Part shown: positions 20,297 to 38,522 of the stretch, piece by piece | Numbering within the stretch: position 1 is the stretch's first letter | How the letters are laid out: each line of letters opens with the position of its first letter | NCBI RefSeq assembly: GCF_000620125.1 | Contig: NZ_JHVL01000006.1 | Span: 1-64,000, forward strand | Source of the DNA: Clostridiisalibacter paucivorans DSM 22131 | GTDB lineage: Bacteria > Bacillota > Clostridia > Tissierellales > Clostridiisalibacteraceae | Direction: 5' to 3' | Length of the DNA: 64,000 bases | Program-made: the position numbers and the translations under genes | Notes under the pieces: model-generated | Told to the model about the DNA's origin: nothing | The model's input: only the letters and a program-made list of their open reading frames with translations | Databases searched by the model: none

Positions 20297-20647
20297 ATGG
20301 AAAAATTAGAAAAGCAAAGAATTGTTCAAGAATATGTACCGGGCAAACAAGTTACATTGGCGCACCTTATTGCCAACCCAGAGAAGAGCATCTATACAAA
20401 ATTAGGTCTAACTGATGAGTATACAGATGCCATAGGAATACTTACAATAACCCCCAGTGAAGCAGTGATAATAGCAGCAGATGTAGCGACTAAAGCAGCA
20501 AATATAGATATAGGATTTATAGATAGATTTAGTGGCTCTTTAGTTATTACTGGTGATGTGGCCAGTGTAGAATCAGCTTTAAAAGAGATATTACATTTAT
20601 TGAGTGATGTATTACTATTTACTCCTACTAAAATTACAAGATCATAA
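20297..20647 (+). CDS. eutS: BMC shell protein EutS
   Basis: A 116-residue circularly permuted BMC-domain protein; EutS forms bent hexamers in the microcompartment shell. The order of elements, an N-terminal strand ending in TLAHLIANP, then the [51 protein letters not shown] core, is that of EutS/PduU rather than a canonical BMC protein. It is the first gene after the ANTAR-controlled leader. The length is within a few residues of the enterobacterial protein. Confidence 0.95.
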
Positions 20648-20659
20648 GAAGGAGATATA

Positions 20660-21082
20660 ATGAAAAAAATTATATTAATTGGTCCAATAGGATGTGGGAA
20701 GACTACCTTTGTTCAATCCTTAAAAAATATATATAGGAGATATAAAAAGACCCAGACTATGGAATATTATGGTAATATCATAGATACTCCAGGAGAGTAC
20801 TTAGAAAATAGAAGGTTTTATAATGCACTAATTGTAGCATCTTTTGATTGTGATGTAATAGCGTTGCTTCAAGACAGTAGTAGTAAAAGATGCATTTTTC
20901 CTCCAAATTTTGCAAATATATTTACTAAACCTGTTATAGGTATAATCACTAAAATTGATAAAGAAAGTAAGTGTCTAGATTTTTCTGAAAAGTGCCTCAA
21001 ACTAGCAGGAGCATCAAAAATTTTTCAAATAAGTGCAATAGAAGGAATTGGGTTAGAGGATGTAGAAGAATATATAAAATAA
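20660..21082 (+). CDS. eutP: EutP/PduV-family small GTPase-like protein
   Basis: A 140-residue P-loop protein with Walker A GPIGCGKTTF at the start, a DTPGEY switch II-like motif and TKID for base specificity. Homologues have been reported as GTPases or as acetate kinases acting with the microcompartment. It follows eutS by 12 bases behind a clean AAGGAGAT site. Intact nucleotide-binding motifs suggest it is active. Confidence 0.92.
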   Translation: MKKIILIGPIGCGKTTFVQSLKNIYRRYKKTQTMEYYGNIIDTPGEYLENRRFYNALIVASFDCDVIALLQDSSSKRCIFPPNFANIFTKPVIGIITKIDKESKCLDFSEKCLKLAGASKIFQISAIEGIGLEDVEEYIK

Positions 21083-21154
21083 AGCTGTTAATTATTTGCC
21101 TTTGTTAATGGGTAAATATCATATAAATGAAGATATGTTAAGGGGGACAATGCA

Positions 21155-21727
21155 ATGAAATACAGAATAGTAGTAGCCGATGATGAGCCTATTACTAGGA
21201 TGGACCTCAGTGAGATTCTCAAAGAGGAAGGCTACAATGTTGTAGGGGAGGCTTCCGACGGATTTGACGCAGTAGAATTATGCAGAAAATTCAAACCAGA
21301 TTTAGTGCTCATGGATGTAAAGATGCCTATTTTAGATGGAATAAAGGCATCCAAAGTTATTATTAATGAAAAATTAGCTAAAAGTGTGGTTCTATTGACG
21401 GCTTATAGTGGAATGGAGTTTATAGAACAAGCTAAGGAATCGGGAGTTATGGGATATATAGTTAAGCCCATAAGCAAAAAAAATTTGATACCTACAATTG
21501 AAGTTGCAATATCTAAAGGAGAAGAGATAGAAAAAATCAAAGATGATGCACAGAAAATAAAGGATAAATTAGAGGCTAGAAAGGCAATTGAGAAAGCAAA
21601 AGGGATACTTATGGAGACAGAAAATATATCAGAAGAAGAAGCCTATAATAAAATTAGAAAGCTTAGTATGGACAAACGATGTCCCATGAAGAGCATTGCA
21701 TCTGCAATTATAATGAATAATTTATAG
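21155..21727 (+). CDS. eutV: Response regulator EutV with ANTAR RNA-binding domain
   Basis: A 190-residue antiterminator. The receiver domain (1-120) has the acidic pair in VVADDEPITRMDL and the phospho-Asp in LVLMDVKMP. The C-terminal ANTAR domain (about 135-190) reads ARKAIEKAKGILMETENISEEEAYNKIRKL. When phosphorylated by EutW in response to ethanolamine, EutV dimers bind two-hairpin RNA targets and block terminator folding. Two such targets exist here, before eutS and before eutA. GGGGG precedes the ATG. It is cotranscribed with eutW. Confidence 0.95.
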   Translation: MKYRIVVADDEPITRMDLSEILKEEGYNVVGEASDGFDAVELCRKFKPDLVLMDVKMPILDGIKASKVIINEKLAKSVVLLTAYSGMEFIEQAKESGVMGYIVKPISKKNLIPTIEVAISKGEEIEKIKDDAQKIKDKLEARKAIEKAKGILMETENISEEEAYNKIRKLSMDKRCPMKSIASAIIMNNL

Positions 21728-21752
21728 TACACAGTATATGGGAGAGATTATA

Positions 21753-23162
21753 ATGCTTAGAAAGTTATGTAAAAAATATACTGAGCTTGATCAGTCGGAT
21801 ATAAAAAAGCTTGAAAACATATCGCAAATACTTCCGATAATAGCAGATTTAGTAAGGGCAAATGTATTTATAGACTGTGCGACCAGTGATCCTAATGCTG
21901 CCATAGTAGTTGCAGAAGCTAAACCTACTACATGTCCTTCTATGTATGAGTATTCTGTAGTTGGAGAACTGGCATTAAGAAAAAATGAACCAGCAGCCCT
22001 TAGAACATTGGAAATAGGTATGGCGACTAGAGATTTGAAAGCCATAACCCAGGAGAACAAAACAGTAAGACAAAGCGTTGTTCCTATACATAACGATGCT
22101 GGAGATGTTATTGGGGTATTGATAATGGAGGAAGACATAACTAAAGATGTAAAACAGGATAGAAAGATGGAGTTCTTGGCTGAGACAACAGAGCAGTTGA
22201 CCGAGACATTACTAAATTTTAGAGATAGTGAATACACTGTGACTTACCATATAAATGATGCAATAGTAATGTTTGACCAACAGGGTATTGCAACGTATGG
22301 TAATCCAGGAGCTAAAAAACTATATAAAAAATTAGGATATAGAGACAGTATAATAGGGATGAACTTCGATAATTTAGTCTTAGATGGAAATTCTTTTAAT
22401 AAACTTATAAACGAGCCTTGCCTAAAGGTATCAGAAGCAACAGTTGGAAAGTTGACACTGCAAATAAAATATGCGGCAATGAAGCAAAAAAATAAGATAG
22501 TAGGCGTTACAATGTTGATAAAAGATATTACAGAGGTGAGGGAAAAGGAAAAGGAACTTATACTTAAATCTGTTGCAATAAGGGAAATACACCATAGAGT
22601 TAAGAATAATTTACAAACTATTGCAAGTTTACTGAGTTTACAGTCAAGAAGAATAAATAATGATTTAGTAAACAAGGCATTTAATGAAAGTATAAATAGG
22701 ATACTTAGTATAGCTGTTACCCATGAAATATTAGCCCAAAATGGTGTAGATGATGTAGATTTAAAGACTATAGTTACAAAGATAAAAAACAGCACTATAA
22801 AATATGGATTGCCTTGTATGAAAAATATAAAGATATCTGTAGAAGGGGATAGCCTTACTATTAATTCAGACAAGGCCACATCTATAGCGTTGGTAGTAAA
22901 TGAATTATTACAAAATTCCTTAGAACATGCCTTTGATGGTAAAACGGAAGGGTTTATAGAAATTTGGATTCAAAAAGGAAGTATGTATTCTAGTATATCA
23001 ATCATTGATGATGGAAGAGGATTTGATGTTAAAGCTATTAAGATGGGTAGTTTAGGATTAAATATAGTTAAAAGTATAGTTAAGGATAAATTACATGGTC
23101 ACTTAAACATAGATTCCACTGAAAATGGAACGAAGATAATATTTGACTTTAAAAATGAATAG
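21753..23162 (+). CDS. eutW: Ethanolamine-sensing histidine kinase EutW
   Basis: A soluble sensor kinase of 469 residues. The N-terminal domain (about 1-135) is the EutW/PdtaS-like sensor, followed by a PAS domain (about 155-265), a HisKA_2 phosphoacceptor helix REIHHRVKNNLQTIASLL (His280/His281) and a HATPase domain with NELLQNSLEHAF and DDGRGFD. There are no membrane helices, so it senses intracellular ethanolamine. I chose ATG 21753 because GGAGAG at 21741-21746 precedes it; the in-frame ATG at 21738 lies upstream of that site. The gene ends just before ANTAR element 2. Confidence 0.93.
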   Translation: MLRKLCKKYTELDQSDIKKLENISQILPIIADLVRANVFIDCATSDPNAAIVVAEAKPTTCPSMYEYSVVGELALRKNEPAALRTLEIGMATRDLKAITQENKTVRQSVVPIHNDAGDVIGVLIMEEDITKDVKQDRKMEFLAETTEQLTETLLNFRDSEYTVTYHINDAIVMFDQQGIATYGNPGAKKLYKKLGYRDSIIGMNFDNLVLDGNSFNKLINEPCLKVSEATVGKLTLQIKYAAMKQKNKIVGVTMLIKDITEVREKEKELILKSVAIREIHHRVKNNLQTIASLLSLQSRRINNDLVNKAFNESINRILSIAVTHEILAQNGVDDVDLKTIVTKIKNSTIKYGLPCMKNIKISVEGDSLTINSDKATSIALVVNELLQNSLEHAFDGKTEGFIEIWIQKGSMYSSISIIDDGRGFDVKAIKMGSLGLNIVKSIVKDKLHGHLNIDSTENGTKIIFDFKNE

Positions 23163-23203: not shown

Positions 23204-23239
23204 AAAGGGTATGGAGACATACTTTTTAGGCCCCTTTTT
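23197..23239 (+). terminator. EutV-controlled terminator between eutW and eutA
   Basis: GGGGCCTAAA (23197-23206) pairs perfectly with TTTAGGCCCC (23225-23234), with an inner GTATG/CATAC stem, followed by TTTTT. A very strong terminator that should stop transcription of eutA and all later genes unless EutV stabilises the upstream hairpins. Confidence 0.92.
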
Positions 23240-23261
23240 GCATTTGACTGGAGGGATTGTT

Positions 23262-24698
23262 TTGAAGGAAGAAATATTAAGCGTAGGAATAGATATCGGA
23301 ACATCGACTACCCAATTAGTATTTAGTAAGTTGACCATTGAAAACACAGCATCTGCCTTTTCCATACCTAAGATAAACATAGTAGATAAAGAAGTAATAT
23401 ATAAAAGCGAGATTTATTTTACTCCTCTAAAATCGGATACAGAGATAGATGGAGAGGCAGTAAGGAGAATAATAGAAGATGAATATGGCAGAGCAAATAT
23501 AAAACCTAAGGATGTAGATACTGGTGCAGTGATAATAACAGGTGAAACAGCTAGAAAAGAGAATGCCAGTTTAGTTTTAAATAAGTTAAGTGGATTGGCT
23601 GGTGACTTTGTGGTTGCCACAGCGGGGCCAGATCTTGAATCAATAATTGCGGGAAAGGGAGCAGGAGCAGATTGTCTTTCTAAAGAGAGAAGGACTGTAG
23701 TGGTCAATTTGGATATAGGTGGAGGCACTACAAATATATCAGTGTTTAAAGATGGAGAGATTTTAGATACCACATGTTTAGATATAGGTGGTAGATTGAT
23801 AAAGATTGATCCAAATAATATGAAGGTAAGGTATGTATCGGAAAAAATAAAAAGATTAGCCAATGGTATAGGGGTTGTGATAGAGGTAGGCAAAGGTATA
23901 ACCCTTAACGAAATAAAATCCATAACTAATAGAATGGCAGAAATAATTGAAGAGGTATTGGGGGCTAAGAAGATTACAGAAGATCTAGGGTTAATCTTAA
24001 CCACGGAGGATTTAAATAGAGATTATGATATACAATACATATCTTTCTCGGGAGGGGTTGCTGACTGTATATATGATGAAGATACTGATAGAGATAATTT
24101 TCAATATGAAGATATAGGGGTTATTCTTGGAAGAAGCATAAGAAATAGTGATATGTTTAAGAAATTCAATATATATGAATCCTCTGAAACCATAAGGGCA
24201 ACAGTTGTTGGAGCAGGAAGTCATACAACAGATATAAGTGGAAGCACTATAACATTTACTAAGGATGTTTTCCCATTGAAGAATATACCTATTCTAAAAC
24301 TGTCCAAAGAAGATGAAAGCCTAGATTACAAAAGATTAAGTGAGAGGATAAGACAAAAAGTAAACTGGTTTAATCTAGATAATGGAAATCAACAAGTTGC
24401 ATTGGCATTAAAGGGGGTGAAAAACCTAAGTTTTAAAGAACTTCAAGATATGGGTCAGAGTATTATTGCTGGAATGAAGGACATATTGAACATGGATATA
24501 CCATTGATAGTAATAGTAGAAAATGATATAGCAAAGGCATTGGGTCAAACAATGCATAGATATCTGGAATATAAGAAGGACGTAATCTGTATAGACAGTG
24601 TAAAGGTTAAAAACGGGGACTTTATAGATATAGGAAAGCCGTTGGCTAATGGTAGAGTTGTTCCCGTGGTAATTAAGACATTAGCTTTTGGATATTAA
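23262..24698 (+). CDS. eutA: Ethanolamine ammonia-lyase reactivating factor EutA
   Basis: An actin/Hsp70-fold ATPase of 478 residues that removes damaged cobalamin from EutBC. Phosphate-binding motifs GIDIGTSTTQLVFSK at the start and VNLDIGGGTTNISVF in the middle are clear. I chose the TTG at 23262: it follows GGAGGG by 7 bases, whereas the in-frame ATG at 23211 lies inside the loop of the leader terminator and has no site. The protein then begins LKEEILSVGIDIGT, as expected for the family. It is the first gene controlled by ANTAR element 2. Confidence 0.93.
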   Translation: MKEEILSVGIDIGTSTTQLVFSKLTIENTASAFSIPKINIVDKEVIYKSEIYFTPLKSDTEIDGEAVRRIIEDEYGRANIKPKDVDTGAVIITGETARKENASLVLNKLSGLAGDFVVATAGPDLESIIAGKGAGADCLSKERRTVVVNLDIGGGTTNISVFKDGEILDTTCLDIGGRLIKIDPNNMKVRYVSEKIKRLANGIGVVIEVGKGITLNEIKSITNRMAEIIEEVLGAKKITEDLGLILTTEDLNRDYDIQYISFSGGVADCIYDEDTDRDNFQYEDIGVILGRSIRNSDMFKKFNIYESSETIRATVVGAGSHTTDISGSTITFTKDVFPLKNIPILKLSKEDESLDYKRLSERIRQKVNWFNLDNGNQQVALALKGVKNLSFKELQDMGQSIIAGMKDILNMDIPLIVIVENDIAKALGQTMHRYLEYKKDVICIDSVKVKNGDFIDIGKPLANGRVVPVVIKTLAFGY

Positions 24699-24737: not shown

Positions 24738-26102
24738 ATGAGATTAAAAACTAAGTTATTTGGTGAAGTGTATCAATTTAGTTCAGTAAAAGAGGTGTTG
24801 GCTAAAGCCAACGAAGAAAAATCTGGGGATAGATTGGCAGGAGTAGCAGCAGAATCAGTAACAGAAATGGTAGCAGCAAAAGAGGTGCTTAGCAATCTTA
24901 CCCTTAAAGATTTGCGTAATAATCCAGTGGTTCCCTATGAAGAAGATGAAGTAACTAGAGTAATACAAGATGCAGTAAATGAAAAAATATATGGGGAAAT
25001 TCAGAATTGGACAGTGGGAGAGCTTAGGGAGTGGATTTTGGATCATAAGACTAAGGAAAGCGATATCAAGAGGATTAGTAGAGGACTTACCAGTGAAATG
25101 GTTGCAGGGGTTGCAAAATTGATGTCAAATCTTGACCTGATATATGGTGCTAGTAAGATTAGAATAACTGCTCATTGTAATACTACTATAGGTCTTCCAG
25201 GTACACTTTCTGCCCGTGTTCAACCTAACCATCCTACAGACAATATTGACGGTATATTGATATCTGCAATGGAGGGTCTATCCTATGGGTGTGGAGATGC
25301 TGTAATAGGATTGAATCCTGTGGATGACACAGTTAACAGCGTAAGTAATGTATTAAAGGCATTTGCAGACCTCAAGAATAAGTGGAAGATACCTACTCAG
25401 GCATGCGTATTGGCCCATGTTAGCACTCAAATGAAGGCCATAAGAAATGGAGCACCATCTGATTGTATATTCCAGAGTATAGCAGGTACCCAAAAGGGTA
25501 ATGAAGCATTTGGTATATCTACTGCTATGTTAGATGAAGCCAGAGAATTAGCATTGAAGGAAGGCACAGCCACAGGCCCCAATGTAATGTATTTTGAAAC
25601 TGGTCAAGGATCTGAATTGTCTTCTGATGCTCATCATGGCGCAGATCAAGTGACATTGGAGGCAAGATGTTATGGATTTGCTAAGAGATATGAACCATTT
25701 TTAGTTAATACAGTGGTTGGATTTATAGGACCTGAATTCTTGTATGACAATCATCAAGTTATAAGGGCAGGACTAGAAGATCATTTTATGGGTAAATTGA
25801 CAGGTATATCAATGGGGGTTGATGCTTGCTATACAAACCACATGAAGGCAGATCAAAATGATATAGAAAATTTAGCAGTATTACTTACAAGTGCAGGCTG
25901 TAATTACTTCATGGGTATACCAGCAGGCGACGATGTAATGCTCAACTACCAGTGTACTGGTTATCATGAAATACCAACATTGAGAGAACTATTAAATTTG
26001 AGACCTACAAAGGAATTTGACCAATGGTTAGAAAAAATGGGCATATATAAAGATGGTAAGTTAACAGAAAGGGCAGGTGACGCATCTATATTTCTTAAGT
26101 AG
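24738..26102 (+). CDS. eutB: Ethanolamine ammonia-lyase large subunit EutB (copy 1, canonical active site)
   Basis: Catalytic TIM-barrel subunit of the AdoCbl-dependent lyase that turns ethanolamine into acetaldehyde and ammonia. At 454 residues it can be numbered directly against the E. coli enzyme as I remember it: Arg160 and Gln162 (SARVQPN), Asn193 (IGLNPVDD), Glu287 (MYFETGQGS) and Asp362 (MGVDACYTNH), the substrate-contacting set, are all present. It is followed after 11 bases by a second eutB and then eutC. This is the copy expected to carry normal activity. Confidence 0.97.
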   Translation: MRLKTKLFGEVYQFSSVKEVLAKANEEKSGDRLAGVAAESVTEMVAAKEVLSNLTLKDLRNNPVVPYEEDEVTRVIQDAVNEKIYGEIQNWTVGELREWILDHKTKESDIKRISRGLTSEMVAGVAKLMSNLDLIYGASKIRITAHCNTTIGLPGTLSARVQPNHPTDNIDGILISAMEGLSYGCGDAVIGLNPVDDTVNSVSNVLKAFADLKNKWKIPTQACVLAHVSTQMKAIRNGAPSDCIFQSIAGTQKGNEAFGISTAMLDEARELALKEGTATGPNVMYFETGQGSELSSDAHHGADQVTLEARCYGFAKRYEPFLVNTVVGFIGPEFLYDNHQVIRAGLEDHFMGKLTGISMGVDACYTNHMKADQNDIENLAVLLTSAGCNYFMGIPAGDDVMLNYQCTGYHEIPTLRELLNLRPTKEFDQWLEKMGIYKDGKLTERAGDASIFLK

Positions 26103-26113
26103 GGGGAATTTAA

Positions 26114-27496
26114 ATGAAACTTAAGACTAAGCTGTTTGGAGTTACTTATAAGTTTAATTCTATAAAAGAAGTATTGGCCAAGGCTAATGAGGAAAAGTCA
26201 GGCGATGGTTTGTTAAAGATAGGCGCTGAGACATCTCAAGAAAGGGTTGCAGCCAAGAGAGTTTTAAGTGAACTGACATTGGAAGATTTAAGAAAGCATC
26301 CCACTATTCCCATGGAAGAGGATGAAGTCACAAGGATGATAGATAATCTGATAAATGAAAGAATTTATAATGACATAAAAAACTGGACAGTGGGATATTT
26401 AAGAGAGTATATATTGCAACATGATACCAGCGAAGAGGATATAAAAAGGATTAGTAAGGGGCTTAATGGTGAAATGATAGCTGGGGTTGCGAAATTGATG
26501 TCTAATATGGATTTAGTTTATGGAGCAAGCAAGATTAATGTCTGGGCTAAAGCCAATACTGTGATAGGTAGACCTGGAACATTGTCTTTTAGACTTCAAG
26601 CAAATCACCCTACTGATGATATAGATGGTATATTGGCATCTATGATGGAAGGTCTATCCTATGGATGTGGAGATGCAGTAATTGGAATAAACCCAGTGGA
26701 GGACACAGTGGGAAATACTATGAAAATTATGAACTGCTTATACGACTTTATGATGAAATGGAATATACCTACCCAGACATGTGTATTGTCCCATATATCT
26801 ACCCAGATGGAAGCAGTAAAGAGGGGAGCTCTGGTATCAGTATTTTTCCAAAGTATAGCAGGCACTGAAGATGCCAATAAAGCCTTTGGAATAAATCAGT
26901 TATTATTGGATGAAGCTTTTGAGCTTATAAAGAAGCAGGGAGCGGCTCCTGGTCCCAATCTTATGTACTTTGAAACGGGTCAAGGTGCAGAGATGTCATT
27001 GGATACAGACCATGGTGTAGATGAGATGACATTAGAGGCTCGAACTTACTGTATTGCTAAAAAGTATTTTCCTTTTATGGTAAATAATGTATCAGGTTTT
27101 ATAGGACCAGAGACATTGTATGATGGTAAACAGATGATACGGGCTAATCTAGAAGACCATTTTATGGGTAAACTTGCAGGGCTACCTATGGGAATGGCAC
27201 CATGTTATACCAATCATACAAAGATGGATCAAAATGACCAGGAATCAGCAACTATGTTATTGGCATTAGCTGGGTCTAACTATTATATGGGAGTACCAGT
27301 AGGGGATGATGTAATGCTAAGTTATCAGGATACCAGCTTTCATGATGATGCAACCTTGAGAGAGCTGTTAAATAGAACACCAGCCCAAGAGTTTTTTCAT
27401 TGGTTAATTAATATGGGGATAATGGATCAAGATGGCAAACTAACAGCAAAGGCTGGAGATCCTTCAATATTTCTAAAAAATGGAGAGGTGAATTAA
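26114..27496 (+). CDS. eutB: Second, diverged EutB paralogue lacking Asp362
   Basis: A 460-residue full-length EutB homologue directly downstream of the canonical copy and touching eutC. It keeps Arg160, Gln162, Asn193 and Glu287 at exactly the same positions, but residue 362 is Ala (MGMAPCYTNH instead of MGVDACYTNH). Other changes cluster around the barrel mouth: SAR to SFR, QPN to QAN, VVGF to VSGF, AGCNY to AGSNY, LNYQ to LSYQ. Asp362 contacts the substrate ammonium in the E. coli enzyme, so this copy may use a different substrate, be a structural or regulatory subunit, or be impaired. The reading frame is intact with a good ribosome site, so it is not a pseudogene. Confidence 0.93.
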   Translation: MKLKTKLFGVTYKFNSIKEVLAKANEEKSGDGLLKIGAETSQERVAAKRVLSELTLEDLRKHPTIPMEEDEVTRMIDNLINERIYNDIKNWTVGYLREYILQHDTSEEDIKRISKGLNGEMIAGVAKLMSNMDLVYGASKINVWAKANTVIGRPGTLSFRLQANHPTDDIDGILASMMEGLSYGCGDAVIGINPVEDTVGNTMKIMNCLYDFMMKWNIPTQTCVLSHISTQMEAVKRGALVSVFFQSIAGTEDANKAFGINQLLLDEAFELIKKQGAAPGPNLMYFETGQGAEMSLDTDHGVDEMTLEARTYCIAKKYFPFMVNNVSGFIGPETLYDGKQMIRANLEDHFMGKLAGLPMGMAPCYTNHTKMDQNDQESATMLLALAGSNYYMGVPVGDDVMLSYQDTSFHDDATLRELLNRTPAQEFFHWLINMGIMDQDGKLTAKAGDPSIFLKNGEVN

Positions 27497-28384
27497 ATGG
27501 TATCTGAAAGAGAATTAAAGAAAATTGTAGAACAGGTATTAACAGAGTTAGGGAGCAAATCTCCTGTAGAAGCTGAAAAATGTACTACACCACAGTGTAC
27601 AGAAGTAAATGACATAGATGATGGTGAGTTGACTGACATAACAACGATTAATTTAAAAGAGCAGTTATTGGTTCCAAATCCAGAAAATAAAGAAGAATAT
27701 TTGAGTATGAAAGCCAAGACACCTGCTAGAGTAGGTGTATGGAGGGCAGGTCCAAGATATAAAACTGAAACTTTGCTTAGGTTTAGAGCGGACCATGCAG
27801 TTGCAATGGATGCTGTATTTACTAATGTAGATGAAGAGATTATAGGGGAAATGAATCTATTTACTGTCAAGACTAAATGTAAAGACAAAGATGAATATCT
27901 TACAAGACCAGATTTGGGAAGAAAATTTGATGATGAAGAGATTAATAAGATGAAAGAAAAATGTCAGATGAATCCACAAGTTCAAATAGTAGTTGCAGAT
28001 GGTCTAAGTTCAACAGCTATAGAGGCTAATATCAGGGATATACTACCTGTAATAACTCAAGGACTAGAAGGATATGGAATAAAGATTGGAACGCCTTTTT
28101 TCATAAAATTTGGTAGGGTGCCTGCAATGGATGTTGTATCAGAAGTTACTGGGGCAGAGGTTACTTGTTTATTGGTAGGAGAAAGACCTGGTCTTGCTAC
28201 TGGAGAAAGTATGAGTGCATATATCGCATATAAGGGTACAGTGGGAATGCCAGAGGCAAGAAGGACAGTAGTTTCTAATATACATCAGGGAGGAACAGCA
28301 TCAATAGAAGCAGGAGCACATATAGCGCACATTATAAAAGAAATGTTAGATCAAAAGACCAGTGGTCTAGATCTTGAATTGTAG
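27497..28384 (+). CDS. eutC: Ethanolamine ammonia-lyase small subunit EutC
   Basis: A 295-residue subunit that, with EutB, forms the cobalamin-binding interface. The first about 20 residues (SERELKKIVEQVLTEL) form an amphipathic helix like known microcompartment encapsulation peptides, then a variable linker of about 40 residues, then the conserved domain beginning TPARVGVWRAGPRYKTETLLRFRADHA and including the conserved VVADGLSSTAIEAN and GERPGLATGESMSAY segments. Its ATG follows the eutB2 stop with no gap. There is only one eutC for two eutB genes, so both large subunits may compete for it. Confidence 0.97.
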   Translation: MVSERELKKIVEQVLTELGSKSPVEAEKCTTPQCTEVNDIDDGELTDITTINLKEQLLVPNPENKEEYLSMKAKTPARVGVWRAGPRYKTETLLRFRADHAVAMDAVFTNVDEEIIGEMNLFTVKTKCKDKDEYLTRPDLGRKFDDEEINKMKEKCQMNPQVQIVVADGLSSTAIEANIRDILPVITQGLEGYGIKIGTPFFIKFGRVPAMDVVSEVTGAEVTCLLVGERPGLATGESMSAYIAYKGTVGMPEARRTVVSNIHQGGTASIEAGAHIAHIIKEMLDQKTSGLDLEL

Positions 28385-28404
28385 AAAAATGGGAGGGATT
28401 ATTA

Positions 28405-29058
28405 ATGAGAAACGATCCAATTCGTGCACAAGTACTAAGTGTTAAATTGATTCCAAATATTGACCCAGATTTGGCTAAGGCACTAGAGCTGGGACCTGAG
28501 CATAGGAGTATAGGGTTAATAACTACTGATATTGACGATGTTTCTTATACAGCTTTAGATGAGGCCACTAAAAAGGCCGATGTAGATGTGGTTTATGCAA
28601 AGTCTTTTTATGCAGGAGCAGCAAATGCCTCTACTAAGTTAGCAGGTGAATTTATAGGTATATTGGCAGGGCCAAATCCTGCAGAGGTAAGAAGTGGATT
28701 AGATGCAGCAGTTGATTTTATAGAAAATGATGCATGTTTCTATAGTGCCAATGAAGATGATTCAATTGCATATTATGCCCATTGTATATCAAGAACTGGA
28801 ACATATTTATCTAGTATGTGTGGAATACAGGAGGGGGCAGCTATAGCATATTTGATAGCACCTCCAATAGAGGCCATGTATGCTTTAGATGCTGCATTGA
28901 AGGCAGCTGATGTTAAGATGGTACAATTTTATGGGCCACCATCTGAAACAAACTTTGGTGGAGGATTATTGACAGGTAGTCAATCAGCATGTAAGGCAGC
29001 TTGTGATGCTTTTGCTGCAGCAGTACACTTTGTTGCAGATAATCCAGCCAAATATTAA
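28405..29058 (+). CDS. eutL: BMC-T shell protein EutL
   Basis: A 217-residue tandem-BMC (trimeric) shell protein with a gated pore. The N-terminal half begins RAQVLSVKLIPNIDPDLAKALEL and the C-terminal half contains GTYLSSMCGIQEGAAIAYLIAPPIEAMYALDAALKAADV, both typical of EutL. Such proteins are thought to pass large cofactors such as cobalamin. The length is that of the family. It follows eutC with AAATGGGAGGG before the ATG. Confidence 0.96.
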   Translation: MRNDPIRAQVLSVKLIPNIDPDLAKALELGPEHRSIGLITTDIDDVSYTALDEATKKADVDVVYAKSFYAGAANASTKLAGEFIGILAGPNPAEVRSGLDAAVDFIENDACFYSANEDDSIAYYAHCISRTGTYLSSMCGIQEGAAIAYLIAPPIEAMYALDAALKAADVKMVQFYGPPSETNFGGGLLTGSQSACKAACDAFAAAVHFVADNPAKY

Positions 29059-29080
29059 TTGAGAAATTGTGGTGATAATT

Positions 29081-29719
29081 ATGAAAAATAGAGCCCTAGG
29101 AATGATAGAAACATATGGATATGTGGGAGCAATCGAAGCCGCCGATGTATGTGTAAAGGCAGCCAATGTTGAATTGGTGGGCTGTGAATTTATAAGGGGT
29201 GGATTAGTGACCATTCATATAAGAGGAGATGTAGGAGCTGTAAAGGCATCAATAGATGCAGCAGAGACTGCTGTGGTAAAGGTAGGAACACTAATATCTA
29301 CCCATGTAATTCCTAGGCCCAGTGATGATGTAGAAAAGATATTGCCTTCTTACGATCCAGATCCAGAAAAAAAAGAAGAAGATATACAGCAGGATGACAA
29401 GGAGGATAAAAAGGATATTGAAGAAGATGAGATACATTCAGCAGAAAAAAATGGGGAAACAAGTGGGGAATATGTAGACGAGGATGAGGAAGAAGAAATA
29501 GATACAAATGAAGACGAATTGAATGATGAAGAAATAGATTTATCATTTAAAACTGGGGATGAGCTTAAGGAGATTAAAACAGTTAAGCTAAGATCATTGG
29601 CTAGAAGTTTAGATGATAAATTTGAAGAACCTTTCCCTATAGAAAGAAATCAAATTAAATATTCTAGAAAAAAAGAACTTATAGAAGCTATATTGAAATT
29701 TTATGAAAGGGTGAAGTAG
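29081..29719 (+). CDS. BMC shell protein with acidic linker and SAP/Rho-N-like C-terminal domain
   Basis: A 212-residue protein in the EutK position. Residues 1-90 are a canonical BMC domain ([30 protein letters not shown]). Residues about 95-165 are a disordered, strongly Asp/Glu-rich linker. Residues about 168-212 form a small helical domain ([13 protein letters not shown], then [15 protein letters not shown]) whose pattern resembles SAP or Rho N-terminal domains, which bind nucleic acid or act as small protein modules. EutK of enterobacteria also has a nucleic-acid-binding-type tail, but of a different fold. The start is ATG 29081; a GTG at 29069 is upstream. Confidence 0.85.
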
Positions 29720-31192
29720 GTGGTGATTAAGGATAAAGATTTAAAATCTATACAAGAAGTGAGAGAACTAGTAGAAAAAGCTAAAGAGGCTCATCGTATA
29801 TTTAAAAAGAAGAGTCAAAAGGATATCGATAATATAGTAAAGGCTATGGCAAATATAGCTTATAGAGAGTCAGATAGATTGGCAAAAATGGCAGCAGCGG
29901 AAACAGGGTTTGGTGTATATGAACATAAGATAATAAAAAATAAGTTTGCAAGTAAAGCTGTATATGAATATATAAAAGATATGAAGACCATAGGCATAGT
30001 TAATGAGGATAAAGAGAATAAAGTAATAGAGATAGCAACACCAGTTGGAGTAATAGCAGGGCTAGTACCTTCGACAAATCCTACATCTACAGCTATTTAT
30101 AAGGCGCTTATAGCAGTAAAATCAGGAAATGCCATAGTATTTAGCCCTCACCCATCGGCACTTAATTGTATTAGAGAAACTGTGCGAATATTGGAAGAAG
30201 AGGCAAAAATAGCAGGGGCACCAGAAGGATTGATAAGTTGTATGTCTATACCTACTATGGAAGGAACAGATGCATTGATGAAGCATAGAGATGTTGCATT
30301 AATATTGGCCACAGGTGGTTCAGGCATGGTGAAGGCTGCATATAGTTCAGGAACTCCAGCATTGGGTGTAGGCCCTGGAAATGTACCTGCATTTATAGAA
30401 AAGAGTGCAGATATACCTCTAGCAGTGAAGAGAATAATGGACAGTAAGACATTCGACAATGGTACAATATGTGCTTCAGAACAAGCTGTAGTTACACAAA
30501 ATTGTATAAAAAATCAAGTAAAGACGGAATTCGTAAAACAAGGTGGATATTTTTTAACTGGAGAAGAACTAGATAAAGTAGGGAACACAATCCAAGACAG
30601 AAGTGGCAAATTCAACTCAGCTATTGCAGGAAGGTCTGCTATAAAAATAGCAGAAATGGCAGGAATAAAAGTGCCTAATGATACAAGGGTGCTAATAGCA
30701 GAGCAGACAGAAGTTGGCAGACAATATCCATTTTCTAGAGAAAAGCTTTCTCCCATATTGGCTTTATATGCTGAAGAAGATTGGGAAAGGGCTTGTGACA
30801 AATGTATTGAATTGCTGAATTATGGTGGGCTAGGTCATTCTTTAGTTATTCATTCTAAAGATGAAGATATAATAAAAGAATTTGCATTGAGGAAGCCTGC
30901 ATCAAGGATATTGATAAATACACCTTCATCGCAGGGAGGTATAGGTGCAAGTACTAATTTAGCACCATCATTGACATTGGGTTGTGGGGCTATAGGAGGA
31001 AGTGCTACATCAGACAATGTAAGTCCATTAAACCTAATAAATATTAGAAGGATGGCCTATGGCATAAAGGAATTAGAAGATATAGCAGACGAGTATAAAG
31101 ATGAGTGTAGTCAAAGAGAAGAAAGATTTAATAATGTGGATGTTGAAAGAATAGCAAAACTTGTCATAGCCGAATTAAAAAAAGGTAAATAG
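29720..31192 (+). CDS. eutE: CoA-acylating acetaldehyde dehydrogenase EutE
   Basis: Converts acetaldehyde, NAD+ and CoA to acetyl-CoA inside the microcompartment. A 490-residue aldehyde dehydrogenase fold with catalytic Cys in FDNGTICASEQAVV and cofactor-binding VGVIAGLVPSTNPT and ATGGSGMVKAAYSSG. The C-terminus ends in a short amphipathic helix (VERIAKLVIAELKKGK) that looks like an encapsulation peptide. Start is GTG 29720 or the adjacent GTG 29723, directly after the previous stop. No alcohol dehydrogenase gene accompanies it, so NADH regeneration must happen elsewhere or through PduS. Confidence 0.96.
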   Translation: MVIKDKDLKSIQEVRELVEKAKEAHRIFKKKSQKDIDNIVKAMANIAYRESDRLAKMAAAETGFGVYEHKIIKNKFASKAVYEYIKDMKTIGIVNEDKENKVIEIATPVGVIAGLVPSTNPTSTAIYKALIAVKSGNAIVFSPHPSALNCIRETVRILEEEAKIAGAPEGLISCMSIPTMEGTDALMKHRDVALILATGGSGMVKAAYSSGTPALGVGPGNVPAFIEKSADIPLAVKRIMDSKTFDNGTICASEQAVVTQNCIKNQVKTEFVKQGGYFLTGEELDKVGNTIQDRSGKFNSAIAGRSAIKIAEMAGIKVPNDTRVLIAEQTEVGRQYPFSREKLSPILALYAEEDWERACDKCIELLNYGGLGHSLVIHSKDEDIIKEFALRKPASRILINTPSSQGGIGASTNLAPSLTLGCGAIGGSATSDNVSPLNLINIRRMAYGIKELEDIADEYKDECSQREERFNNVDVERIAKLVIAELKKGK

Positions 31193-31238
31193 TCTTAATA
31201 AAAATAAATTTTAATGAAATTAAAGGAGGAATATACAA

Positions 31239-31523
31239 ATGGCTAATACGAATGCATTGGGAATGATAGAGACTAAAGGATTGGTAGGTTCTGTAGAGGC
31301 AGCAGATGCCATGGTAAAGGCGGCAAATGTAACACTTATTGGAAAGGTACATGTTGGTGGTGGCCTTGTAACTGTAATGGTTAGAGGAGATGTAGGGGCT
31401 GTTAAAGCAGCTACAGATGCTGGGGCAGCGGCAGCAGAAAGAGTTGGAGAATTGGTTTCTGTACATGTAATTCCAAGACCTCATAATGAAGTGGAACTAA
31501 TATTACCTAAACTTGAAGGATAA
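31239..31523 (+). CDS. eutM: Major hexameric BMC shell protein EutM (copy 1)
   Basis: A 94-residue canonical BMC-domain protein ([58 protein letters not shown]), the main facet tile. AAAGGAGG, the strongest ribosome site type, precedes the ATG, fitting a highly made protein. A second, closely similar copy lies at 37065. A structured hairpin follows it in the mRNA (31531-31568). Confidence 0.97.
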
Positions 31524-31587: not shown

Positions 31588-32328
31588 ATGAAAGTTTTGA
31601 CTGAGGCAGAACTTAGGGCAAGGCTTAAAAAGGAAAAAACAGATGAGCTCATTGTCAATTCTAATATTATAATTACTCCTTCTGCTAGGGAATATTTGAA
31701 TGAAAAAAATATTAAATTGGTATTTGAAGATGAGGTAAAACAGGCTAGTTCAAAACCAGATAATCAAAAGCATAAAGAAGATAAAGAGGAGAGGTTTGTA
31801 CCAAAATATATATGTAGATATACTGGAGGGTATTTTGATGACAAACCTGAACATATGACTCAGTTATATGGTAATGAATTGGTTTTTAAAGATCATCCCA
31901 GTATAGTATTTAGGGGTAAACTTGATAGTCTCCAATCGAAAATACTTGAGGTACAGGTGATGGCAGATAGAGATAAGTGCCAGAAGTTGGTTGATGAGAT
32001 ACAAGAAATACTTCGATTTGTAAGAAATATACTTAAAGCAGAGGTTATTAATGAAAAAATAGAAAATATAAGTATCCTGGGACTAAAGGAAGAAGAGGTT
32101 AGGGAAATGTCACATAACCCTAAAAAGCATCTAGGAGTAGAGCATATATTGCCTGATTATAAAATGGGAGAATTGGTAATAGGATTAAATGCCATTCGAA
32201 GTAGTGTTAGAGAAGCAGAATTGAGTTCTATATCTCTGGAAAGAAAAGATATAATAAAAGCCCTCAATAGATTGAGTAGTGCAGTATATGTAATGATGTG
32301 CAGGTATTTGGCTGGATATTACAACTAA
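31588..32328 (+). CDS. eutT: Ethanolamine-type cobalamin adenosyltransferase EutT
   Basis: Makes AdoCbl from cob(I)alamin and ATP for EutBC. The 246-residue chain starts with an about 50-residue EutQ-N-like module (VLTEAELRARLKKE, then IIITPSAREYLNEKNIKLVFED), a polar linker, and the adenosyltransferase domain beginning PEHMTQLYGNELVFKDHPSIVFRGKLDSLQ, with an all-helical C-terminus. The HX11CCX2C metal motif known from Salmonella EutT is absent, as in the Firmicute-type enzymes. AAAGGATGTGAT precedes the ATG. Confidence 0.92.
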   Translation: MKVLTEAELRARLKKEKTDELIVNSNIIITPSAREYLNEKNIKLVFEDEVKQASSKPDNQKHKEDKEERFVPKYICRYTGGYFDDKPEHMTQLYGNELVFKDHPSIVFRGKLDSLQSKILEVQVMADRDKCQKLVDEIQEILRFVRNILKAEVINEKIENISILGLKEEEVREMSHNPKKHLGVEHILPDYKMGELVIGLNAIRSSVREAELSSISLERKDIIKALNRLSSAVYVMMCRYLAGYYN

Positions 32329-32342
32329 TGGGAGGTGAACCG

Positions 32343-32999
32343 ATGGATGAAAGAATGATAAAGGAAATAATAGGTAGAGTAGTAGAGGGACTATCACAAG
32401 AAGAGAGTGAAAAAGGTATTATACCCATTGAGGCATCAGCAAGACATGTACATCTTAGTAAAGAGGATGTAGAAAGACTTTTTGGAAAGGGCTATAGGCT
32501 CACTCCTAAGAGAGAATTATCCCAGCCAGGACAATTTCTGAGTAATGAAAGGGTCACATTAATTGGACCTAAGGGCATGTTTAAAAATGTGGCTGTATTA
32601 GGGCCAGAGAGGAAAAACACCCAAGTAGAGGTTTCCAAAACAGATGCCATATCTCTAGGGATAAAGGCACCTGTTAGGGAATCAGGAAAAACAACAGGAA
32701 GTTCATCCATATATCTATCATCGGGAAAAGATATGATAAAGGTTGATGAAGGAGTTATTATAGCAAAGAGACATATTCATATGCCACCAGATATAGCCAA
32801 TAGCTTTGGAGTAGAAGATAAACAAATAGTATCGGTGAAGGTATTCAGTGATAGACCAGTTATATTTGAAGATGTATTAGTAAGGGTAAGCAAAGACTAC
32901 AGTTTAAATATGCACATAGATTTTGATGAGGCAAATGCGTGTAACTTTGAAAATGGCATTAAAGGAAAAATATTGACAGAAGAGGGGAAATGGCAATGA
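32343..32999 (+). CDS. pduL: Microcompartment phosphotransacylase PduL (EutD-equivalent)
   Basis: Converts acetyl-CoA and phosphate to acetyl phosphate, recycling CoA in the compartment. 218 residues. The paired zinc-binding motifs are SARHVHLS and AKRHIHMPPDIA, typical of PduL. The N-terminal MDERMIKEIIGRVVEGL is an amphipathic encapsulation-type helix. Start is ATG 32343, 6 bases after GGGAGGTG; an in-frame ATG at 32298 is inside eutT. The end overlaps eutJ by 10 bases. This is the PduL class, unrelated in fold to Pta. Confidence 0.95.
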   Translation: MDERMIKEIIGRVVEGLSQEESEKGIIPIEASARHVHLSKEDVERLFGKGYRLTPKRELSQPGQFLSNERVTLIGPKGMFKNVAVLGPERKNTQVEVSKTDAISLGIKAPVRESGKTTGSSSIYLSSGKDMIKVDEGVIIAKRHIHMPPDIANSFGVEDKQIVSVKVFSDRPVIFEDVLVRVSKDYSLNMHIDFDEANACNFENGIKGKILTEEGKWQ

Positions 33000-33820
33000 T
33001 AGATTTTACAAATTCCGATAGTATAATCGCCCAATTGGAAGAGACTATTAAAAACCCTAAAAAAGTGAAGCAAGGAGAAGAATTGCTGGTAGGTGTGGAT
33101 TTAGGTACAGCATATATTGTATTGGTTGTATTAGATAAGGACAAAAGACCAGTAGCATGTGAAATGGAATTTGCTCAAGTAATAAGAGATGGACTGGTTG
33201 TAGACTATATAGGTGCTATGAAAATAGTGAGAAGTCTTAAGGAAAGAATAGAAGAAAAGATAGGAGTAGAGCTTACCAAGGCAGCCATAGCAGTTCCACC
33301 AGGAACAGGTGAGAGGGACAGTAAGACCCATATGTATGTAGTACAGGGAGCAGGTATGGAAGTAACTAATATATTAGATGAGCCTACAGCTGCCAATGCA
33401 GTGCTGAATATAGATAATGGAGTTATTGTGGATATAGGTGGAGGTACCACTGGATTATCTATAATTGAAGATAGTGAAGTAGTATATGTAGCTGATGAAG
33501 CTACAGGAGGAACCCATTTAACATTGGTTATAGCTGGAAGTTACAAAGTTAAATTTGAAGAGGCAGAAAAATTGAAGACATCTTCGGACAAACAAGATGA
33601 AGTTTTTCCTGTGGTAATACCTGTAGTTCAGAAAATGGGAAATATAGTAAATACTCATATTAAAAATCATGATGCTAAAGAGATATATCTTGTGGGAGGT
33701 ACTAGTTGTCTAAAGGGAATAGAGACAATTATAGAAAAAGAAACGGGAATAACTACTATCAAACCTAAAAATCCATTTTTAGTAACACCTTTAGGTATTG
33801 CTATGAATTGCAGGATATAA
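32990..33820 (+). CDS. eutJ: EutJ, Hsp70/actin-fold chaperone-like protein
   Basis: A 276-residue actin-fold ATPase. Phosphate-1 motif GVDLGTAYIVLVVLD, phosphate-2 motif IVDIGGGTTGLSII and the adenosine motif VGGTSCLKGIE are present. EutJ occurs in most eut loci; a chaperone role in enzyme assembly or loading is proposed but not proven. Residues 1-20 form another amphipathic segment. The ATG overlaps the pduL stop, implying coupled translation. Confidence 0.94.
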   Translation: MAMIDFTNSDSIIAQLEETIKNPKKVKQGEELLVGVDLGTAYIVLVVLDKDKRPVACEMEFAQVIRDGLVVDYIGAMKIVRSLKERIEEKIGVELTKAAIAVPPGTGERDSKTHMYVVQGAGMEVTNILDEPTAANAVLNIDNGVIVDIGGGTTGLSIIEDSEVVYVADEATGGTHLTLVIAGSYKVKFEEAEKLKTSSDKQDEVFPVVIPVVQKMGNIVNTHIKNHDAKEIYLVGGTSCLKGIETIIEKETGITTIKPKNPFLVTPLGIAMNCRI

Positions 33821-33838
33821 AGGATGTGATATTTAGAT

Positions 33839-34522
33839 ATGAATTCAATGGATACTAAAGAGCTGATTGAATATATAACTAGGGAAGTTATGAAGAGGAT
33901 TCAAAACACTAATACAGATAAGTTGAATGAAAGAAAGGATAAGATTTTAACTGTAGATTTTTCAATAGAAAATGTATTGGAAAAAGTCAAGGAAGATTTT
34001 CATATAGATCATTTGGAAGATTTAAATGAAGATGTAGTTGTAGATTCCTATAAATATATTTTAATAGGGAGTATGACTAATAAGGAACTAGTTAATATTG
34101 CATTGGGATTGCCAAATGATAAAATCTCTTCCATTATAATAGACTTTATATTACAAGGCAAAAGGGTGTATGTGTTAAATGAAGGCATCAAATATCACAA
34201 ATATAAGGACAGTTCCAATATACCATTTTATAATATGATGAAATCTTATGAAGAAAGGCTTGAAACCTTTGGAATAAATTTTGTAAATGAAAAAGAGATA
34301 TCAGGATTGTTTGCTGATAATATGAGGGCAAAAGAGTCTGTTGATGAAAATGTTGATAAAAATAACCAATATGTAATTAAAGAAAAAATAGTGACGGAAT
34401 CTCTAATAAGACAGATTCACCAAGGAGGATATACAGAGGTTGTAACAAATAAAGCCACTATAATAACTCCTTTGGCAAAAGACTATATAAGGACCAATGG
34501 CATTGGTATCTTTACCAAATAA
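33839..34522 (+). CDS. TIGR02536-like ethanolamine-utilisation protein of unknown function
   Basis: A 227-residue protein found in Firmicute eut loci. Its first 20 residues (TKELIEYITREVMKRI) look like an encapsulation helix. The middle has a flavoprotein/decarboxylase-like alternation (YKYILIGSMTNKELVNIALG, then IIDFILQGKRVYVLNEG). The last about 45 residues (IVTESLIRQIHQGGYTEVV, ITPLAKDYIRTNGIGIFTK) match the EutQ-N-like module of EutT and of the 99-residue protein at 36751. Function is not known to me; location inside the compartment is inferred from the helix. Confidence 0.75.
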   Translation: MNSMDTKELIEYITREVMKRIQNTNTDKLNERKDKILTVDFSIENVLEKVKEDFHIDHLEDLNEDVVVDSYKYILIGSMTNKELVNIALGLPNDKISSIIIDFILQGKRVYVLNEGIKYHKYKDSSNIPFYNMMKSYEERLETFGINFVNEKEISGLFADNMRAKESVDENVDKNNQYVIKEKIVTESLIRQIHQGGYTEVVTNKATIITPLAKDYIRTNGIGIFTK

Positions 34523-34546
34523 ATTTAAACGAGGAGGAAGGTATTT

Positions 34547-34819
34547 ATGATAGTTGGAAAGGTAGTTGGAAATATATGGGCTACAAGAAAAGATGAGGCT
34601 TTAAATGGACTAAAGTTTTTAGTTGTAAAACCTTTAGATTATTCTTCGGGTAAAGACCTTCCTACTGTGGTAGCAGCTGATACCATTGGAGCAGGAATAG
34701 GAGAAACGGTATTAATAGTAAATGGTAGTTCGGCTAGAATGGCCTTAGGAAGAAAAGACATTCCCATTGATGCAATAATAGTTGGAATAATTGATGTAGT
34801 TGATGTAGAGGAAGATTAA
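34547..34819 (+). CDS. eutN: BMC vertex protein EutN
   Basis: A 90-residue pentameric BMC-P protein that caps shell vertices. It starts MIVGKVVGNIWATRKDEALNGLKFLVV, with ADTIGAGIGETVLIVNGSSARMA and a C-terminal IDAIIVGIIDVVDVEED, the standard EutN/CcmL layout. GAGGAGG precedes the ATG. It is the only vertex gene seen in the locus. Confidence 0.96.
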   Translation: MIVGKVVGNIWATRKDEALNGLKFLVVKPLDYSSGKDLPTVVAADTIGAGIGETVLIVNGSSARMALGRKDIPIDAIIVGIIDVVDVEED

Positions 34820-34844
34820 ATGGGAAAAGAGGTGTTGGTAGAAC

Positions 34845-36191
34845 ATGGATTTATTACAGAAAATATATGAAGCGGGAGTTGTGGGAGCGGGAGGTGCAGG
34901 ATTTCCTACCCATGTAAAATTAGATTGCAAAGTAGAATACCTTATTATAAATGCAGCTGAATGTGAACCTCTATTAAATACAGATAAATATATCATGATG
35001 AATAGAGGGGAAGAAATAATAAAGACTGTAGAAGAGGTAGGAGAGTTTGTAGAGGCTAAACATCTTATTATAGCCCTTAAAGAAAAATATACAGAGGAAA
35101 TAAATAGTCTGAAGGACATAATTAAAAGATTAAATTCAAATGTGGAATTATTCTATCTAGGTAATTACTATCCAGCAGGAGATGAGCAGATGATGGTATA
35201 TGAAGTAACAGGTCGGTCTATTCCTGAGGCAGGGATACCATTGGATGTGGGTGCAGTAGTTACCAATGTAGGGACTATAGTCAATATTGGTGAAGCAATG
35301 AAGGATAATCCTGTTGTAGATAAGTGCATAACTGTAGTGGGAGAAGTAAATAATCCTACAATGCTTAAGGTACCAGTAGGTATATCGGTTAAAGAGTGTA
35401 TAGATGCAGCAGGTGGCACTGATCTCAATGAATATGCTGTCATAATAGGTGGCCCTATGATGGGGACTATAATAGATGATAATGAAACCCATAAAAATCA
35501 CATCAAAAAGACTGATGGTTCTTTGATAATATTGCCTAAAGATCATTATATAGTACAAAGGAAGAGGAAACCTCTTCAGACTATAATAAATGAAACTAGA
35601 TCGGCGTGTATCCAATGTAGATATTGTACCGATTTATGTCATAGATATCTCATAGGTCACAAATTGAGACCACATAAAGTTATGAGGAATATAGGTATGT
35701 CGGAGCAGGATGAAGAGATAATGAAGGAAGCGTTGATATGTTGTGAGTGTGGAATATGTGAGTTGTATTCTTGTCCTATGGGACTTTCACCTAGATTAGT
35801 AAATGTATATGTTAAAGGAGAGCTGAGAAAGAAAGGTATAAGACCAGAAAAGGGTAGTACAGATATTGAGAGCAGAGATATGATTGAATATAGGAAGATT
35901 CCTACAACAAGGCTTATGGCAAGATTAGATATACTTAAATATTATAATCAAAATATAGATGATATAAAGGAATTGTTTCCTAAAGAAGTTACCATACCAT
36001 TGAGTCAACATATAGGAAAACCTGCCAGTGCCGTAGTAAAAGTTGGAGATAATGTATCTAAGGGTCAACTTATAGGAAAGGTAGAAAGAAATGATATGGG
36101 GGCAAATGTACATGCAACCATAGATGGAAAGGTGTTGGAGGTATCAGATAAGGTAATTATTCAAAGGGAAGATAATGGGGTGATTTTATGA
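34845..36191 (+). CDS. pduS: PduS-like RnfC-domain flavo/iron-sulfur protein (cobalamin reductase)
   Basis: A 448-residue redox protein. The N-terminal Rnf/NuoF-like FMN and NADH region opens VVGAGGAGFPTHVKLD, with NAAECEPLLNTD. Two 4Fe-4S sites follow: CIQCRYCTDLC and CCECGICELYSCP. The C-terminus has an RnfC barrel-sandwich (ASAVVKVGDNVSKGQLIG). In propanediol compartments PduS reduces cob(II)alamin for the adenosyltransferase; here it would serve EutT, and with the PduT-like protein could also move electrons across the shell. GAGGTG precedes the ATG. Confidence 0.92.
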   Translation: MDLLQKIYEAGVVGAGGAGFPTHVKLDCKVEYLIINAAECEPLLNTDKYIMMNRGEEIIKTVEEVGEFVEAKHLIIALKEKYTEEINSLKDIIKRLNSNVELFYLGNYYPAGDEQMMVYEVTGRSIPEAGIPLDVGAVVTNVGTIVNIGEAMKDNPVVDKCITVVGEVNNPTMLKVPVGISVKECIDAAGGTDLNEYAVIIGGPMMGTIIDDNETHKNHIKKTDGSLIILPKDHYIVQRKRKPLQTIINETRSACIQCRYCTDLCHRYLIGHKLRPHKVMRNIGMSEQDEEIMKEALICCECGICELYSCPMGLSPRLVNVYVKGELRKKGIRPEKGSTDIESRDMIEYRKIPTTRLMARLDILKYYNQNIDDIKELFPKEVTIPLSQHIGKPASAVVKVGDNVSKGQLIGKVERNDMGANVHATIDGKVLEVSDKVIIQREDNGVIL

Positions 36192-36736
36192 TAAGGACCA
36201 TAGGACTTCTGGAACTAAATAGTATAGCTAAGGGGATAGAAACAGCTGATGCTATGATAAAGGCTGCCGAAGTAGAATTAATACTTTCAAACTCCATATG
36301 TCCTGGGAAATATATAGTGCTTATTTCGGGGGATGTAGGAGCGGTAAAATCCTCTGTAGAGGCAGGAAAAGAAGTAGGAAGACAATATGTAGTAGATGAG
36401 TTGATTCTACCCAGTATACATCCTCAATTGATTAATGCTATAAATGGTGCTACACAAATAGGGGAAGTAAATGCCATAGGAGCAATGGAATTTTTCAGTG
36501 TAGCTACATCAATAGTAGCAGCTGATGCGGCAGCAAAGGCTGCATTGATAAATCTTATAGAAATAAGATTAGGTTTTGCTATAGGAGGAAAGTCTTTTGT
36601 TACATTGAGTGGAGATGTAAGTGCTGTAAAGGAGGCCGTCGAAGCGGGAAGTATGATAGGTAAAGACAATGGTATGCTTATAAGTAAGGTGGTTATCCCA
36701 TCTCCTAGAAAAGAATTATTTGAAAAATTGTTATAG
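36188..36736 (+). CDS. pduT: PduT-like trimeric BMC shell protein with an iron-sulfur pore cysteine
   Basis: A 182-residue protein with two tandem BMC domains (1-90 and 95-182). Cys38 in SNSICPGKYIVLISGD is at the position that binds a 4Fe-4S cluster in the central pore of PduT trimers. The ATG overlaps the pduS stop by four bases, and PduS and PduT are known partners. Together they suggest electron transfer through the shell. Both BMC domains look complete. Confidence 0.93.
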   Translation: MIRTIGLLELNSIAKGIETADAMIKAAEVELILSNSICPGKYIVLISGDVGAVKSSVEAGKEVGRQYVVDELILPSIHPQLINAINGATQIGEVNAIGAMEFFSVATSIVAADAAAKAALINLIEIRLGFAIGGKSFVTLSGDVSAVKEAVEAGSMIGKDNGMLISKVVIPSPRKELFEKLL

Positions 36737-36750
36737 ATGGGAGGGATAAT

Positions 36751-37050: not shown

Positions 37051-37064
37051 AGGAGGCAAATATT

Positions 37065-37352: not shown

Positions 37353-37369
37353 GTAGAGTGGAGAGTAGC

Positions 37370-37389: not shown

Positions 37390-37407
37390 GATAAAGGGGG
37401 AGAATAA

Positions 37408-38508: not shown

Positions 38509-38522
38509 TGGGGGTATAGATT

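Follow-up and report, generated by a model that had tools for sequence, protein, structure and literature searches.

A second EutB with alanine at position 362 in the eut operon of Clostridiisalibacter paucivorans, a predicted lyase for N-methylated ethanolamines

Introduction

The first 64,000 nucleotides of contig NZ_JHVL01000006.1 of Clostridiisalibacter paucivorans DSM 22131 (hereafter, the window) contain a complete eut microcompartment operon (20297-38969), in which two eutB genes stand in tandem ahead of a single eutC. The ethanolamine ammonia-lyase (EAL) of E. coli binds the hydroxyl group of its substrate through R160, N193 and E287, and the amino group through Q162, E287 and D362. 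The second EutB of the window (EutB2) has an alanine in place of D362, which raises the question of whether it is still a lyase and, if so, for which substrate. The initial annotation of this locus had proposed either a lyase with another substrate or a non-catalytic partner that shares the single EutC. Here, we present evidence for the first of these proposals and narrow it: on the basis of residues, tree position and the gene context of relatives, we estimate a probability of about 60% that EutB2 is the large subunit of an additional, active adenosylcobalamin (AdoCbl) lyase acting on N-methylated ethanolamines (choline, N,N-dimethylaminoethanol or both, and possibly N-methylethanolamine). 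We know of no B12 enzyme that splits choline or other N-methylated ethanolamines, and a literature text search found no report of EutB acting on choline, methylethanolamine or dimethylethanolamine.

Results

Two intact eutB genes precede a single eutC

The features of the operon are listed in Table 1. Both eutB genes are intact and preceded by ribosome-binding-like sequences; they are separated by a spacer of 11 bases, and eutC follows eutB2 with a spacing of 0 bases. Both proteins are matched along their full length by the Pfam family EutB (PF06751); in EutB2, the match covers residues 12-445 and lies far above the curated cut-off of 25 bits. With E. coli EutB (PDB 3ABO) as the reference for residue numbering, EutB1 and EutB2 align without gaps to this protein and to 2QEZ up to about residue 436, beyond residue 370 to which gap-free numbering had initially been claimed. 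EutB1 and EutB2 share 65% identity, and their identity to E. coli EutB is 62% and 55%, respectively.

Table 1. Features of the eut operon in the window.
Feature	Position	Strand	Description	Evidence
eutS, eutP, eutV, eutW	20297..23162	+	Shell protein, GTPase-like protein, two-component regulator	ORFs; same order in Geosporobacter and G381
eutA	23211..24698	+	Reactivating factor for B12 lyase	ORF; EutA orthologues beside EutB2 elsewhere
eutB1	24738..26102	+	Canonical ethanolamine ammonia-lyase large subunit, D362, 454 aa	Pfam EutB 737 bits; PDB 2qez/3abo; residues; D362 side of tree
eutB2	26114..27496	+	A362-P363 type EutB paralogue, 460 aa, predicted lyase for N-methylated ethanolamines	Pfam EutB 663 bits; residues; A362 side of tree
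eutC	27497..28384	+	Sole small subunit in operon, canonical EutC lineage, presumably common to EutB1 and EutB2	Pfam EutC 291 bits; EutC tree
eutL, BMC-domain protein with long tail, acetaldehyde dehydrogenase (eutE-like), eutM-like	28405..31523	+		ORFs; BMC domain
Cobalamin adenosyltransferase (eutT-like), PduL-type phosphotransacylase, eutJ-like, eutN, pduS-like, BMC tandem protein, eutM-like, eutH, eutQ	31588..38969	+		ORFs; Pfam Cob_adeno_trans, PTAC, EutN_CcmL, EutH, EutQ

A residue-by-residue check bore out the arrangement first described: EutB1 has R160, Q162, N193, E287 and D362, and EutB2 has the first four of these residues, as expected of a functional EAL, but carries A362-P363 where the aspartate for the substrate amino group should be. 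We take R160, N193 and E287 of EutB2 to be the sites of the substrate hydroxyl and of the radical chemistry, and position 362 to be that of the amino-group carboxylate. EutB2 also differs at F159, A163, S327, S388 and S403, as well as from EutBC of the E. coli type at M322 and T334. Among the additional changes initially listed, A159F, P163A, V327S and the one in the LNYQ motif (N403S) are correct, while the C-to-S change lies at residue 388 instead of near 393; P363 and D406 had been missed.

Synonymous divergence is saturated, and hence we make no dN/dS claim. A structure of EutB2 predicted from 12 sequences had a mean pLDDT of 67.7, with active-site loops below 50; because this model is weak, no docking or distance argument was drawn from it.

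Between positions 14500 and 42000, the only RNA family detected is a tRNA at 41504. Upstream of the operon, the window also encodes a 115 aa low-complexity tandem-repeat protein consisting mostly of GPGRPGY repeats (14855-15202, minus strand), and a 430 aa ORF in which an HD-domain hydrolase seems to precede a ribonuclease H-like domain (15303-16595, plus strand).

EutB2 belongs to an A362-P363 subfamily

EutB rows were gathered by scanning a genome collection with EutB2 and by searching about 1,200 whole genomes. This survey for the presence of D362, which had been suggested together with the first reading of the locus, gave 181 aligned rows, a few of which are the same protein repeated (e.g., the window copy and Desulfoluna): 144 have D362, 36 have A362 and one has G362. 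P363 and D406 are present in all 36 A362 rows and in 0/144 D362 rows. At position 327, the A362 rows have S (32) or T (4) and all D362 rows have V; at position 159, F or Y occurs in 34/36 A362 rows. Together with Q376, these residues (F/Y159, S/T327, A362, P363, D406) mark the A362 group. R160, N193, E287, S247, F258, V326 and F329 are invariant across both groups. P163A and N403S were dropped as markers, being found in only 3/36 and 14/36 A362 rows, respectively.

A quick maximum-likelihood tree of 89 rows (signature columns removed, without bootstrap, some long rows included) contains one branch that splits the A362 and G362 rows from the D362 rows (SH-aLRT 98). This single separating branch places the split between the two types far beyond chance. 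EutB2 of the window lies on the A362 side and carries A362-P363, D406 and S327, and thus belongs to the subfamily, whose members are spread over Bacillota, Actinomycetota and Thermodesulfobacteriota. No published account of an A362-P363 subfamily was found in a literature text search.

Within the subfamily, EutB2 groups with the tandem second copies of Geosporobacter subterraneus and of G381, a genome of the same class, both of which have the same eutB1-eutB2-eutC order; absence or frame-shift of the second eutB in all relatives is thereby excluded. The tree position and these conserved tandem copies indicate that EutB2 is a paralogue of long standing and neither a young duplicate nor one in decay. 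G052, the nearest relative as judged by EutB1 (92% identical), has a single EutB match, with eutC directly after eutB1, so that the distribution of the second copy is patchy: it was lost in G052 or gained by the others.

A D362 EutB, identified by residue or score class, is also present in 31 of the 34 A362 genomes found; a rule that A362 EutB is always accompanied by the D362 type fails in G067, G753 and G1153. G067 (Oscillospiraceae) has two non-D362 EutBs (L035:10001-11368 and L114:1501-2868) and no D362 EutB; one is G362-C363 and the other A362-P363 with C163 and T327. A further active-site type is seen in G1160 (L304:451-2631), where a fused EutBC with S362-P363, T327 and V406 adjoins a gene for a TRAP-like binding protein. 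G1013 contains two fused EutBC genes about 28 kb apart (L300:3849-6215 and L301:4427-6685); both have D362, together with D325, A327 and T406, and represent a third large EutB group.

A362 loci of relatives contain choline and methylamine genes

One A362 locus of Sporomusa malonica lies beside pylB, pylC, pylD and a trimethylamine methyltransferase gene with an in-frame TAG; the amber-containing genes of S. malonica (647 bits) and of G081 score 647-648 bits in TIGR02369 (cut-off 525). Its second A362 locus contains PylSc, a Choline_kinase-family kinase, a corrinoid protein and an EamA transporter. In G081, which is of the same order as Sporomusa, all these pyl, methyltransferase, kinase and EamA genes surround one A362 microcompartment operon. 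In Desulfosporosinus HMP52 and G081, EutB2, EutC2 and EutA are encoded together, adjoining genes for a corrinoid protein, an APH-type kinase, an MttB-like protein, another corrinoid protein and a pterin-binding methyltransferase. By family and order, this set resembles mthC, mthK, mthB and mthA of E. limosum. In Desulfosporosinus, a gene for a PocR-type regulator also adjoins EutBC. G595 has a kinase and a transporter of the same kind near EutB2, where a sarcosine/dimethylglycine oxidase-type FAD enzyme is also encoded.

In Desulfoluna, EutB2-EutC-EutA is found near CutC (TIGR04394, 1657 bits). Two genomes of the same class have a fused A362 EutBC in an OpuAC-ProV-permease-EutA-EutBC operon, the permease of which (tested for G700) matches the choline ABC permease model TIGR03416 (421 bits; cut-off 363), and G680 has a BCCT transporter. 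True CutC is present in five A362 genomes, where a second choline lyase would be redundant unless substrate or conditions differ. A putative CutC match at L152 was disregarded, being only a fragment of generic pyruvate-formate-lyase-like character.

No choline gene was found near the A362 genes of the window, Geosporobacter, G381 and Bacilli. Five Bacilli loci (L208, L216, L217, L045 and L051) have EutB2-EutC2 without a full shell operon, several with EutW/EutV-like regulators. The genome of the window has no MttB-family gene and no CutC (TIGR04394) match over the cut-off of 1050 bits; two CutC-related glycyl radical enzymes encoded outside the window (C25:1265-3616 and C26:31799-34141) score 541 and 528 bits, well below it.

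D362 loci serve as a control

One set of query genes was run against both 29 A362 loci and 78 D362-only loci. Genes of the methyltransferase, pyrrolysine, mthK-like, cutC or choline ABC kinds were found in 8/29 A362 loci versus 0/78 D362 loci (Fisher p=1.3e-5) and, when only genomes with MttB-family genes were considered, in 6/10 versus 0/12 (p=0.003); since the loci are interrelated, these p-values overstate independence and are guides only. With a wider query set, a transporter or kinase also appeared in three D362 loci. Ethanolamine-permease-type genes showed the opposite distribution (0/29 A362 versus 13/78 D362 loci). Moreover, in G063, G065 and G081, which have both types at separate loci, the D362 locus contains an ethanolamine permease and the A362 locus choline or methylamine genes; the permeases of G063 and G065 exceed the cut-off of the ethanolamine-permease model TIGR00908 (382 bits). 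Genome-wide co-occurrence with MttB-family genes was uninformative because many D362-only genomes have them and the genome of the window has none, and we therefore used only the neighbourhood.

These distributions bear on whether EutB2 might act as a lyase on a primary amino alcohol instead (ethanolamine itself with different kinetics, 2-amino-1-propanol or 1-amino-2-propanol). EutB2 is indeed encoded in an ordinary eut operon with EutH and a shared EutC, and a D362 EutB coexists with the A362 type in most genomes. In addition, two fused A362 loci found later than the control set (L303 and L305) lie beside eutH and an APC permease that stays below the TIGR00908 cut-off (216 and 211 bits), and do not fit neatly with a methylated substrate. 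However, the amino-binding carboxylate has been lost, together with the appearance of P363, S327 and D406, and the A362 loci have choline and methylamine genes instead of ethanolamine permeases. We thus regard a primary-amine substrate as unlikely.

Another possibility is that methylated ethanolamines are used by the Sporomusa, Desulfosporosinus and Desulfobacterota branch only, and that the early-branching type of the window does otherwise. The copies of the window, Geosporobacter and G381 do form a branch of their own lacking the choline context, but EutB2 of the window is identical to the Sporomusa type at F159, N325, S327, A362, P363 and D406, which makes such a restriction quite improbable.

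EutC and EutA partners of A362 EutB

In a tree of EutC, 23 small subunits with an A362 EutB as partner fall into a separate clade (SH-aLRT 99). The single EutCs of the window, Geosporobacter and G381 fall among the partners of D362 EutB. EutC of the window is thus of the canonical lineage, which leaves EutB2 without an EutC of its own lineage; most likely, it shares the canonical EutC with EutB1, the formation of such a complex being predicted from sequence. For this operon, the sharing proposed in the initial annotation is therefore supported.

The proposal that EutB2 is a non-catalytic partner in mixed complexes with EutB1 and EutC fared differently. It would account for the loss of one substrate ligand and for the presence of only one EutC in the operon, but the catalytic residues are invariant in every A362 row and most A362 forms have an EutC of their own clade. 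EutA is encoded beside EutB2, and some A362 forms in which EutB is fused to EutC have an EutA to themselves; in G753, moreover, an A362 EutBC accounts for every EutB match. This proposal is accordingly very improbable. A diol dehydratase-like lyase (for ethylene glycol or 1,2-propanediol), for which D362 would presumably be dispensable as the substrate is neutral, is scarcely credible, given that no diol genes were recognised in the A362 contexts read and that the context genes handle amines.

Discussion

Our results favour the view that EutB2 is an active lyase for N-methylated ethanolamines. It retains the residues for the hydroxyl side of the pocket and lacks the D362 carboxylate, so that its substrate is probably a 2-hydroxyethyl amine with a methylated nitrogen; loss of D362 would be expected if this nitrogen bears methyl groups and one or no N-H. 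The substrate would be split into acetaldehyde and dimethylamine or trimethylamine. EutB1 and EutB2 would have EutC and EutA in common, with EutA renewing the cofactor, and acetaldehyde from EutB2 would enter the same microcompartment and be used by the shell enzymes. If this reading is right, the organism, which has no MttB-family gene and no CutC over the cut-off, would excrete the amine or use it otherwise.

The trimethylamine methyltransferase and the choline ABC transporter speak for choline as the substrate, and the mth-like sets for dimethylaminoethanol; gene neighbourhoods cannot tell the two apart. For EutB2 of the window, we infer the substrate by transfer from distant relatives. Tentatively, and with somewhat less than even confidence, we propose that the A362-P363 subfamily comprises AdoCbl-dependent lyases that release trimethylamine from choline and/or dimethylamine from dimethylaminoethanol. 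Such a B12 counterpart of CutC would be invisible to cutC-based surveys of trimethylamine formation; the choline reaction is suggested by genomic context.

If correct, choline or the products of its demethylation would have another path to methylamines and acetaldehyde, one that involves no glycyl radical and has been missed because annotation labels the enzyme an ethanolamine ammonia-lyase, and predictions of trimethylamine producers would change. It would also be a clean natural experiment on how substrate choice is set by the amine pocket of a B12 radical enzyme, and the fate of dimethylaminoethanol would become testable in bacteria with both mth-like and EutB2 systems.

EutB2 is a variant of a known enzyme family and, if our reading is right, has an unusual substrate. 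It shares with E. coli EutBC (3ABO; 2QEZ) the fold family, the B12 radical-site residues R160, Q162, N193 and E287, the EutC partner, EutA and the microcompartment operon; it differs in A362-P363 for D362, in S327, M322, T334, Q376 and D406 and, in many relatives, in gene company. EUT2D microcompartment loci have PocR regulators (PMC4207490), as does the Desulfosporosinus A362 locus, although EutB is not split by active-site type in the searched passages of that taxonomy. The nearest published idea to ours is the suggestion that the duplicate fused eutBC1 and eutBC2 of Pelobacter carbinolicus may encode an ethanolamine ammonia-lyase and a choline trimethylamine-lyase (PMC3543383). These duplicates were rejected as A362 types, as both copies of G1013, presumably this organism, have D362.

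In the E. limosum mth cluster, MthK phosphorylates choline and MthB demethylates phosphocholine; dimethylaminoethanol is the end product of choline demethylation, the cluster encodes an EamA transporter whose best hits are LicB and MttP, and S. malonica is named as a choline-using methylotroph with mthK and mthB (PMC12155760). The similar gene set of MthB, MthC, MthA and MthK type beside EutB2 in Desulfosporosinus and G081 would thus yield a candidate EutB2 substrate. Unlike the proposed EutB2 reaction, the Mth system removes a methyl group from phosphocholine and leaves the C-N bond to the ethanol part uncleaved. A functional parallel would be CutC/CutD, which, like EutB2 in our proposal, splits a functionalised ethanol into acetaldehyde and an amine in a microcompartment. 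The protein families are nevertheless unrelated (EutB2 matches EutB only, and not TIGR04394), and CutC uses a glycyl radical versus adenosylcobalamin; for CutC, direct elimination has been proposed, as opposed to migration in EAL (PMC8473560). Phe395 of CutC makes a cation-pi contact with choline (PMC8473560), and the aromatic residue at position 159 of nearly all A362 EutB rows is a candidate parallel to it.
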